A stretch of 40,849 nucleotides of DNA from a bacterium (GTDB lineage Bacteria; Bacillota; Clostridia; Lachnospirales; Lachnospiraceae), in the NCBI GenBank assembly GCA_030535455.1, contig JAUNJY010000039.1:1-40849 (forward strand). Direction: 5' to 3'. A program made the translations under genes and the position numbers. A model generated the notes under the pieces. It was not told the DNA's origin. It was given only the letters and a program-made list of their open reading frames with translations, and ran no database searches. Positions within the stretch are counted from its first letter, which is position 1; each line of letters opens with the position of its first letter. Of this stretch, positions 4,188-5,875 are shown in pieces.

Positions 4188-4290
4188 GTAGTCTAATCAA
4201 ATTGGCTGCGTAGAAGTGTTCAAAATAACTCTACAACAATATTTCATTTGCTCCATATACCACGACATGATTTTGGTAGGAGGTCATATT

Positions 4291-5412
4291 TTGAAAAGGA
4301 AAGAAATTAAATTTGCAGCGGTGATTACTGCAGTATGTGCAACGGTTCTATTATGCCCGACAACGACAAGAACTAGGGCGACTGGACAGGGTTCGCCATC
4401 TGGCCAGGCTGTTGCGGGAATTTCACTATCCATTAACAATTACTATAAAAAGACTTATTCAGACATTACATCTACTATTTCAATGACAGATGCTTTTATT
4501 GCTGCCAAAAAGGATGTAAGCCAAGAGACCAAAGAAGATACTACGAATTCACAATATAAAAATATCGGTATTGCCAATGTGACAACATATCTGAATGTCA
4601 GAGAGAAGGCGGACGAGTCATCTGAGATTGTAGGTATCCTCCCTAAAAATGGCGGATGCTATATTTACAGTATTAATAAGGATGGCTGGGCTAAAATTAG
4701 GTCTGGTGATATTACAGGCTATGTTTCAAGCAAGTTTCTTGTAACGGGTGGAGAGGTATCTGCACTTGCAAAGAAGGTTGGTTCTAGAATTGCTACGGTA
4801 AATGAAGTTACCGTTCGTATTCGAGAGAAGAAAAGTACCGACTCAGCAACACTAGCTTTAATTCCAAAGGGAGAAGAAGTGGAAGTGTTGGATGATTCGG
4901 ATGATCAGTGGTTATATGTTAGAGTTGATAATGATAAAGGTTATGTGAGCAAAGATTTGGTTGATGTAAAATATCAGCTGGCAAAAGCGACGGACTCTGA
5001 AGAAGAGGCTGCAGTAGCTGCTTCTGGAGGAAGTGTGTCTACCACCTCCACGATTCGCTCGAAAATGGTTTCTTATGCGAAGAAGTTTTTAGGTGGCAAG
5101 TACGTGTATGGCGGGACAAGTCTGACAAGCGGTATTGACTGTTCTGCATTTATGATGAGAATTTATGAACATTTTGGATATAACATTACAAGGACATCAA
5201 GATCTCAGGCAGAGGCAGGGACAACGATCAAGTTGTCAAAGGTTAAGCCAGGAGATTTAGTATTTTATGATAGAAATGGAACGATTAATCATGTTGCCAT
5301 GTATATTGGAAATGGCAAGATTATTCATGCTTCAAATCCTAGAAGTGGGATCAAGATTAGCAACATGTATTACAAAATGCCTTTTAAGGCCGTTCGTTTC
5401 TTGGAAGACTAG
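4291..5412 (+). CDS. Secreted two-SH3 NlpC/P60 peptidoglycan endopeptidase
   Basis: The product is 373 aa and cleaves peptide bonds in peptidoglycan stems, outside the membrane. The TTG at 4291 is chosen because taggaggt at 4277-4284 precedes it and translation from there gives a clean signal peptide (KRK, hydrophobic core AAVITAVCATVLL, likely cleavage near residue 30). Two bacterial SH3 domains follow, at roughly residues 91-151 and 165-228, then an Ala/Ser linker. The C-terminal NlpC/P60 domain has the Cys284, His334, His346 triad (IDCSAF, NHVAM, IIHAS). It may act in spore cortex, germination or vegetative wall turnover, and the sequence does not say which. A long hairpin begins three bases after the stop codon. 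Confidence 0.92.
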   Translation: MKRKEIKFAAVITAVCATVLLCPTTTRTRATGQGSPSGQAVAGISLSINNYYKKTYSDITSTISMTDAFIAAKKDVSQETKEDTTNSQYKNIGIANVTTYLNVREKADESSEIVGILPKNGGCYIYSINKDGWAKIRSGDITGYVSSKFLVTGGEVSALAKKVGSRIATVNEVTVRIREKKSTDSATLALIPKGEEVEVLDDSDDQWLYVRVDNDKGYVSKDLVDVKYQLAKATDSEEEAAVAASGGSVSTTSTIRSKMVSYAKKFLGGKYVYGGTSLTSGIDCSAFMMRIYEHFGYNITRTSRSQAEAGTTIKLSKVKPGDLVFYDRNGTINHVAMYIGNGKIIHASNPRSGIKISNMYYKMPFKAVRFLED

Positions 5413-5414
5413 GG

Positions 5415-5637
5415 ATTTTTCTTCCTCCCCACGTAGTCTGTGAAGGAGTTTGGGCGTTTGGAAATGCATGTTCTTCGGTTTCCTCTACAGTTTGTGTTCG
5501 GTGTTCGTGCTACGCAGACCGTTTGGTCTGTGTAGCGCGGACGCCGAGCGCAAACAGTAACGGAAAACGAAGTACATTTGCATTTTCCAAAGCGCTCAAA
5601 CTCTTATTTTAGTTTTACGAGAGGGAGGAAGAAAAAT
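5415..5637 (+). ncRNA. ~220-nt near-continuous hairpin, possible structured RNA or palindromic element
   Basis: Both ends pair (5415-5429 with 5623-5637, 15 of 15). A middle arm pairs with small bulges (5444-5483 with 5562-5605). The core is a 31-bp uninterrupted helix (5490-5520 with 5525-5555) closed by a GTTT loop. In the core, six pairs are G-T; these remain paired in plus-strand RNA as G-U but would be A-C mismatches in minus-strand RNA. This points to plus-strand RNA folding, although C-to-T drift in one arm of a DNA palindrome would look similar. It starts right after the NlpC/P60 stop, so it may also serve as that gene's 3' end. No ORF fits. Family unknown. Confidence 0.6.
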
Positions 5638-5688
5638 ATTGGCTTCCAGACGTTATGGTATGAGTTACACGATACGCAATGCGTTGCC

Positions 5689-5720
5689 GCCCATCGTAGA
5701 TGGGCTTGCAACTAAGTTGC
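5689..5720. repeat. Two small adjacent hairpins
   Basis: A 7-bp stem, gcccatc/gatgggc (5689-5695 with 5699-5705, loop gta), is followed by a 5-bp stem, gcaac/gttgc (5708-5712 with 5716-5720). Both have 3-nt loops. They sit between the long hairpin and the two-copy repeat and resemble fragments of dispersed palindromic elements. Confidence 0.4.
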
Positions 5721-5733
5721 TTATGGAGGAAAA

Positions 5734-5875
5734 ATGGCGCTGCGCTATTTTTCCTAGAGCTTCCTTGAAGGGCGGTTTGGGAAAGTGGAGTGTTGAGGGG
5801 GGGGGGGGGGATGGCGCTGCGCTGATTTTTCTTGGGGCTTCCTCGAAAGGTGGTTTGGGAGAGTGAGAAGTTGAG
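5734..5875 (+). repeat. Two-copy tandem repeat split by a 14-G run
   Basis: Unit 1 (5734-5797) and unit 2 (5811-5875) both start atggcgctgcgct and share cttcct.gaa.gg.ggtttggg and ttgag blocks, with a period of 77 bp. A homopolymer of 14 G (5797-5810) lies exactly at the junction. A 75-codon frame crosses the repeat, but its product is low-complexity and frame integrity depends on the G count, so it is not called as a gene. The remainder, 5876-6058, is G-rich with no gene seen. Confidence 0.7.

Follow-up and report, generated by a model that had tools for sequence, protein, structure and literature searches.

A long hairpin behind an NlpC/P60 gene of a Lachnospiraceae genome as a probable copy of a dispersed palindromic element of gene 3' ends

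What is a perfectly begun palindrome of 223 nt doing directly behind the stop codon of a protein-coding gene? The question is raised by positions 5415-5637 of the 40,849-nt stretch of DNA analysed here (the window). An initial annotation had described a long plus-strand hairpin at this place, and the description was borne out: the sequence folds as a single hairpin of -138.3 kcal/mol, compared to -58.7 +/- 4.6 for shuffled sequences (z -17.3), and none of 200 shuffles was as stable. The core helix was found exactly as claimed, with 31 unbroken pairs (5490-5520 with 5525-5555) closed by the loop GTTT, six of the pairs being G-T and five of these having T on the left. This bias towards T on the left arm holds in the core but not in the complete fold, where 12 of the 97 pairs are G-U and T lies on the left in 6 of the 12. 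The start of the hairpin is indeed flush with the end of the gene, as its perfectly paired 15-nt outer arm begins at 5415. A slightly larger stretch (5385-5665) read on the minus strand also folded stably (-119, z -11.8), and the palindrome is therefore strong for both strands. The parts of the locus are as follows.

4216..5412, plus strand: host gene, an ORF of 398 aa for an SH3_3 and NlpC/P60 protein (PF00877, 1.3e-26; PF08239, 3.1e-21), stop TAG at 5410-5412
5415..5637, plus strand: complete hairpin; the orthologue behind the same gene in genome G001 is 89% identical
5415..5429, plus strand: outermost left arm, 15 nt, perfect complement of 5623-5637
5438..5608, plus strand: scored at 142.8 bits by R1, the covariance model of the family, whose alignment includes the window copy
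5470..5478, plus strand: conserved outer motif, left half, GTTCTTCGG; T.T and G.A mismatches
5482..5490, plus strand: conserved CCTCTACAG; left half of the T.C/C.A loop and of the A.A mismatch
5490..5520, plus strand: 31-bp core helix, left arm; the middle part varies strongly among copies
5521..5524, plus strand: loop GTTT
5525..5555, plus strand: 31-bp core helix, right arm
5555..5563, plus strand: conserved CAGTAACGG; right half of the T.C/C.A loop and of the A.A mismatch
5568..5576, plus strand: conserved CGAAGTACA; outer motif, right half
5623..5637, plus strand: outermost right arm, perfect complement of 5415-5429
5638..5875, plus strand: tail of small hairpins and two 51-nt direct repeats with GCTTCCTTGAAGG-like motifs

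By eye, the tail resembles the AAAAGACGAGTTTCCTAA tail of other copies and is a candidate part of the element only. It contains a run of 14 G at 5797-5810, flanked by the direct repeats (5747-5797 and 5825-5875). Elsewhere in the window, positions 369-413 and 620-664 form a 45-nt inverted repeat (73% complementary, 206 nt spacing), both arms of which contain a palindrome of their own (TATAAGGAAACTTATA).

Searches against described structures and mobile DNA were negative. The window had no match above the Rfam 15 gathering thresholds; in nine other loci, searched with E up to 1, only microRNA precursor models fell over the hairpins, far below threshold, and Rfam models of group II introns matched neither in the window nor in these nine loci. 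Blastn with the window hairpin found nothing in the plasmid and phage sets. A viral origin was considered and rejected: a loose form of the family pattern occurred in 66 viral contigs, a number of the order expected by chance (a rough estimate), inspection by eye of the folds below -45 kcal/mol revealed no nested hairpin, and two stricter subfamily patterns were present in no viral contig.

The hairpin is not a solitary structure. Blastn with the window hairpin, a check which the initial annotation had proposed, returned a second place in its own genome (G000) and three in G001, i.e., in two of the 61 genomes searched. The words CTCTACAG and CAGTAACGG, 40-70 bases apart, were found at 8 places in G000, 11 in G001, one in G003 and none in G002, and the same two-word pattern read backwards at none. 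Twenty sequences from such places make up alignment A1, from which the covariance model R1 was built. R1 was run on eight genomes and then on fetched stretches together with the window, and its 149 matches were reduced to 85 places by dropping 63 that were opposite-strand counterparts of retained places and one that was a repeat. These lie in G000 (18), G001 (23), G003 (3), G126 (8), G314 (5), G326 (27) and G327 (1), with no match in G002. Genome G039, a member of another family of the same order which had no role in building the model, contributed 14 further places, and the window hairpin is accordingly one of 99 covariance-model places in eight genomes of its order.

The hairpins are mostly 150-360 nt in length and share a core, roughly 110 nt long, in which mismatches are conserved; some of the 99 places are truncated. 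Six places in G000 are short or weak (L164 at 2511, L168, L169, L171, L172 and L173), and at L207, where the scores of the strands hardly differ (39.9 and 38.2), the minus strand was used in later tests. By eye, four copies (L226, L199, L175, L144) have extra partial tandem copies of one arm next to the hairpin; the left arm of L183 (2564-2756) has an insertion of ~19 nt that would form a small hairpin; and L166 is followed by a tandem array with a unit of ~80 nt containing AAAAGACGAGCAAGATGGC, like the tail motif of other copies.

The distribution of the family is patchy. With a stricter filter, which loses weak matches, R1 carriers numbered 6 of 397 genomes in the bacterial family and 3 of 392 in the order; a second model, R2, run across the phylum, found the window's own genome only, of 398. 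A strict-pattern contig scan, which may leave out records of the window's own genome, returned 10 stretches, all in one MAG (isolate S3R_St_47), where they are spread over 9 contigs. In the literature searched (open-licence PMC papers only) no description of such a family was found, and it is apparently undescribed.

The other proposed check, a covariance model, addresses whether pairing is maintained among the copies. In A1, 92.3% of the cells pair, and in 38 of the 55 pairs both sides have changed. Covariation amounted to 0.495, compared to 0.157 +/- 0.011 in shuffled alignments (0 of 500 as high) and 0.076-0.104 in slid ones; it thus exceeds both kinds of control, as is expected of a structured RNA element. 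The initial annotation had named an absence of other copies, together with arms that diverge without pairing, as the outcome that would speak against it; the opposite was found, with many copies in which pairing is kept, and its candidate of a nonautonomous palindromic element gains support. The same data dispose of an ordinary intrinsic terminator or a chance palindrome, to which only the location at a gene end would be suited: with 99 places and their covariation, a z of -17.3 and no U run 3' of the right arm, this explanation is refuted by the family and is extremely improbable.

Within each copy the arms are complementary. From copy to copy their sequence varies, in some groups throughout and in others only in part; the largest group of G000 and G001 has conserved outer arms, and the G314 copies are, by eye, alike in the core and in little else. 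Orthologous copies have likewise kept the core and changed the arms. Across four orthologue pairs, 27 base pairs have changed on both sides with Watson-Crick pairing kept; the rest comprise 5 one-sided changes to G-U, 11 one-sided mismatches, 6 others, 168 unchanged pairs and 3 gapped ones. At the rpsP-KH locus (orthologues L166 and L182) six pairs have both sides changed. Hypermutation of the arms was considered, and no mutator is needed: in eight host gene pairs the 4-fold sites have diverged as well, by 0.24 overall (196 of 812; 0.06 to 0.50 per gene pair). Transitions make up 13 of the 27 double changes and 60 of the 196 differences at 4-fold sites (p 0.08). These arms also bear on the idea that the hairpin makes up the body of a small RNA processed from the 3' UTR. 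The stable fold of the plus strand and the small-RNA-like size are compatible with such a molecule. However, a shared target for pairing with the arms is unlikely, since these are unconserved among copies and orthologues, and several copies per genome stand behind unrelated genes; we regard a processed small RNA as very unlikely.

What is conserved, apart from pairing, is a set of mismatches. The assertion that the mismatches of the window hairpin are almost all G-U was not upheld: beyond the core helix those of the conserved part are T.T, G.A, a T.C/C.A double mismatch and A.A, types which were read in the window's own group of five copies and several of which recur in other groups. A census of 81 copies in seven groups found the C.A mismatch in 14/14 copies of group A, 12/13 of B, 5/5 of C (which includes the window), 27/27 of D (G326), 14/14 of G039, 4/4 of the G126 group and 3/4 of G314. 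It is the majority state in all seven groups, positional homology being assumed in the two four-copy groups. The T.C beside it is present in A (14/14), C (5/5) and D (27/27), and in 6 of 13 copies of B, where 6 more have T.T; G039 is without it and has T.G there in 12 of 14 copies. The G.A mismatch is fixed in groups A and C, in G314 and in the G126 group. Since the columns adjoining the mismatches change pairwise while the mismatches themselves stay unpaired, these are probably read by something.

The second common property of the copies is their position. The nearest upstream ORF is in sense at 88 of the 99 places (76 of the 85 R1 places and 12 of the 14 in G039), a missing ORF being scored as antisense (L157 upstream, L160 downstream). 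The downstream neighbour displays no strong preference (38 sense, 47 antisense or missing, among the 85 places). Considering open frames of at least 90 codons, a sense stop lies within 250 nt of the hairpin base at 80 of 99 places, with a median distance of -1 nt, as against 47 of 99 and a median of 107 for stops on the convergent side; between -10 and 25 nt of the base the numbers are 39 and 5, respectively. A negative distance means that the predicted stem reaches into the gene, in part because it is extended by chance. The base GGCTG(G/T)CGC of subfamily A begins, by eye, -1 to 8 nt past the stop. There are 11 convergent pairs of hairpins, 127-704 nt apart, and in 9 of them a sense gene lies upstream of each member, which indicates that each gene has its own copy. 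The suggestion that the window hairpin forms part of an unusual 3' end is supported as well. As the orientation is a sense one, the element, or its insertion, would appear to read the direction of transcription.

Terminator-like hairpins were sought around the copies with a crude finder, which placed one between stop and core in 5 of 76 copies and one within 400 nt downstream in 7 of 76, compared to 0 of 76 in shuffled sequence. In G039 such a hairpin lies between stop and core in 4 of 12 copies, and the rpsP-KH copy L002 lies, by eye, behind one. In view of the terminator-like hairpins in G039 and the few downstream ones, transcription of the element is not secured.

Other structures observed near copies include a c-di-GMP-I riboswitch (L177, 15582-15670, 78.1 bits), a match to sRNA SpF59 on the minus strand (L177, 1781-1849, 53 bits; cut-off 37.2) and a below-threshold match to the cspA thermoregulator, also on the minus strand (L160, 2825-3182, 53.9 of 78 bits). 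A different repeat (GGATGAAATCAGG... GATTAGTGCTCATTCG...) was seen by eye at L221, L178 and L179: behind mgtE in G000 and beside two G001 elements.

Thirty host frames were scanned against NCBIfam, and the named host genes are mostly unrelated housekeeping genes, among them guaB (in G001 and G003), trxA, serS, pheS, trpS, glmS, a gyrA-like topoisomerase gene, glyA, pyrG, dnaJ, aspartate kinase, thiI, prmA, ilvA, mgtE, prfA, tuf, ispG, ribF and trpD. At the pyrE locus the element sits behind a small ORF that follows pyrE. ABC-F genes are hosts in G000 and in G326, the latter just below the NCBIfam cut-off. The hosts of L160, L193, L203 and the window have NCBIfam matches only under the cut-off, and those of L142 and L205 have none at 1e-20; by Pfam, SH3-NlpC/P60 genes are hosts in the window (G000) and once in G314.

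One possible explanation of such a position is that the hairpin is a regulatory 3' UTR element encoded by the host, for example a barrier to 3'-5' exonucleases or a site for an RNA-binding protein through which housekeeping genes are co-regulated. The protein site would then consist of the conserved mismatches, and the arms would need only to pair. The sense orientation behind stop codons, the very strongly maintained pairing, the C.A majority throughout the groups and the recurrence of guaB, ABC-F and NlpC/P60 hosts in different genomes all agree with this. It is at odds with the patchy distribution, with empty sites and decayed copies within one genus and with the inverted copies of gene ends (both described below), and we consider it rather unlikely.

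Whether selection acts on RNA had been argued in the initial annotation from the G-U pairs, which stay paired on the plus strand only. A crude count over 83 copies yielded 436 G.T and 218 A.C pairs, with an excess of G.T in 62 copies and a deficit in 14; it was not relied on, because inherited pairs are counted many times, and it probably takes in flanks whose sense strand is rich in G and T. A1 alone, with one conserved U.G column left out, has 32 G-U and 21 A-C. In 76 of the 99 copies, when only mostly Watson-Crick columns predicted on both strands were admitted, 84 G-U and 60 A-C cells were counted (p 0.055), in 60 and 53 columns, respectively (p 0.57); by majority type, 12 columns are GU and 11 AC. 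At the level of the family the argument from G-U pairs to selection on plus-strand RNA is therefore not supported. The drift from C to T on one arm, offered as an alternative source of the G-U pairs, is not needed either: of the 84 G-U cells, 40 have T on the left arm.

As there is no clear preference for G-U over A-C, pairing is seemingly kept about equally on both strands, which would be in line with a structure acting at the DNA level: folded single-stranded DNA recognised by a recombinase or a single-strand transposase, its orientation resulting from the targeting of terminators. Group IIC introns are known to target transcription terminators. The G039 copies with a terminator-like hairpin before the core, and L002, suit this proposal; the scarcity of such hairpins between stop and core elsewhere (5 of 76) and the lack of any Rfam group II intron in the window do not. 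It overlaps with the explanation preferred below, from which it differs in what is selected, and taken by itself it is unlikely. The hairpin may be an RNA element or a DNA element guided by transcription or terminators.

Evidence for gain and loss was obtained by comparing six G001 gene ends with those of relatives by eye. Behind guaB, G001 has the element and G003 a different copy, and the site is empty in both G000 and G002. The element is absent behind mgtE in G000, where a terminator-like hairpin lies a few bases past the stop; the site behind the small ORF that follows pyrE is empty in G000 and G003, and G000 also has an empty site behind the MarR-like gene of L184. At prmA the G000 copy is without its apical part, and at ilvA G000 has a decayed copy; G002 and G003 are empty at both. 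Copies without the apical part include L164 (at 2511) and L168, two further ones of G000, and L208; the ends of the L164 deletion fall, by eye, in CAG repeats on both sides. For G314, six of ten loci were judged against sister genomes by eye, L249, L253, L258 and L265 being left out (wrong frame): the sites behind the gyrA-like gene (G1109 and G1110), glyA (G1110) and the NlpC/P60 gene (G1111) are empty in the sisters, and two G1109 loci carry a different hairpin. Presence/absence polymorphism of the MITE type was thus seen by eye at orthologous sites behind guaB, mgtE, the ORF behind pyrE, the gyrA-like gene and glyA. No clear target-site duplication was seen by eye at the filled and empty sites, whose flanks are too diverged.

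The origin of the arms is suggested by G314, where the host gene's end recurs in inverted form in four of the five copies. Aligned with the reverse-complemented downstream sequence, the gene ends show identities of 38/47 (L204), 43/57 (L203), 33/41 (L205) and 20/24 (L206); the matches begin up to 5 nt before the end of the stop and extend into the gene, that of L205 passing through the stop. An unanchored test of 88 copies gave a mean of 10.99 for own gene ends and 10.03 for crosses, with 5 copies above the 99% point where 0.9 were expected. Permutation within genomes gave 0 of 20000 for the inverted sequence and, for the controls, 1420 (direct), 17579 (reversed) and 14963 (complemented). The anchored test was repeated on 83 copies, after L178, L163, L170, L240 and one of L185 had been dropped for doubtful upstream genes (L170 had matched via the element's own end, not a gene end); own partners scored 7.96 and partners permuted within genomes 6.99 (1/50000). 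G326 alone yielded 53/50000, G314 alone 436/50000 (five copies allow little less) and all genomes except G314 108/50000; when both were left out the result was not significant (4866/50000). That every genome has inverted gene-end copies was therefore rejected, significance being restricted to these two. The match at L167 may be due to chance, and the window copy has no significant inverted copy of its gene's end (p 0.43). Inverted copies of gene ends are thus shown in G314 and supported, by a weaker excess, in G326.

At the gyrA-like locus of G314 the sister genomes keep the end of the gene without the palindrome, so that the gene is the original and the right arm its copy. The two loci of G1109 with a different hairpin (L252 and L263) have another core, GCAAATTTATCC...GGATAAATTTGC, directly behind the stops of two genes, with a longer middle in L263. 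The sequence downstream of L252 is, by eye, the end of the gene upside down (score 15, no null). An exact search for this core found one place, in one of seven genomes. Judging from these sequences, L252 suggests that insertion of this kind may be more general and extend beyond one element.

Taken together, we believe that the window hairpin belongs, with reasonable probability, to an undescribed family of nonautonomous palindromic elements dispersed at the 3' ends of genes, the arms of which derive in part from the host gene; the window copy displays the core and the maintained arms. The element would move, as the presence/absence patterns suggest, and a putative enzyme would recognise its core. 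Either during insertion or afterwards, through fold-back copying, the sequence left of the core would be duplicated in inverted form to give the right arm; arms made in this manner would be locus-specific and could take in the last part of the host gene. From then on the hairpin would form part of the 3' UTR of its host's mRNA, which the stable stem may protect or, at the least, hardly harm. A more specific and only tentative version is that a mobile hairpin core, wherever it lands, builds new arms by fold-back copying from the 3' end of its host gene. The product would be a palindrome specific to that gene, which has the core at its centre and spans the stop codon; self-primed reverse transcription of the mRNA end could be one route. 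The use of the same genes as hosts in different genomes (guaB in G001 and G003, ABC-F in G000 and G326, NlpC/P60 in G000 and G314) would be explained by a host function too. If the arms are copied from the target, insertion would itself create palindromes where genes end; if the host is what keeps the element, core metabolic and translation genes bear a new kind of 3' UTR element. For either reading, the copies and empty sites described here are a defined set of test cases.

Of the known kinds of repeat, compared here through the portions of their published accounts that were consulted, the nearest in behaviour is YPAL (RU-2) of Yersinia and Erwinia, an element of conserved sequence. It is a dispersed palindromic repeat of about 168 bp, recently mobile to judge by filled and empty sites; its targets span or adjoin dyad symmetry, with target duplications of 3-26 bp, and it is expressed with upstream genes ('co-translated') and might influence stability (PMC2229807). 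The section on YPAL in that account describes neither arms that are divergent but paired nor an inverted host gene end (PMC2229807). Dispersal as a palindrome and the occurrence of filled and empty sites are shared with the present family. In contrast, the window hairpin has 223 nt, the others mostly 150-360 and the arms are unconserved, a distinction drawn from the description of YPAL; the target duplications made by YPAL were not clearly seen here by eye.

ERIC is a repeat of largely conserved sequence. ERIC (IRU), Efa-1 and other SLS families are mostly intergenic, have many copies and are predicted to form stem-loops, that of ERIC being a single long one (PMC2267715), and ERIC, as RU-1, has 127 bp (PMC2759123). 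PMC2267715 contains none of the terms 'covari', 'compensatory' and 'stop codon'. From these, as far as the portions consulted describe them, the present hairpins differ in length and in having a conserved core with unconserved arms. The bcr1-bcr18 repeats of Bacillus cereus are interspersed, often in UTRs, some being MITE-like and some having a conserved secondary structure, and only bcr3 was correlated with decay rate (PMC3446304). Compared by description alone, they belong to another host group, and anchoring at stop codons is not in the part of the bcr account consulted.

REP and REPIN sequences, which are associated with a RAYT transposase, are, in the material consulted, extragenic palindromes with units of 20-40 bp, also in alternating orientation. 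The present hairpins are longer than such units, and 9 of the 11 convergent pairs have a sense gene for each hairpin. The attC site of integrons has 57-141 nt, a size which the window hairpin exceeds, and group IIC introns are set apart by the absence of an Rfam intron structure in the window and the nine loci. Neither a conserved core with locus-specific arms nor inverted copies of gene ends were found described among the kinds compared, within the portions of their accounts consulted. The bacterial palindromic repeats compared are described as families of conserved sequence, whereas here it is the core and the pairing rule that are kept, and the sequence of the arms can change.
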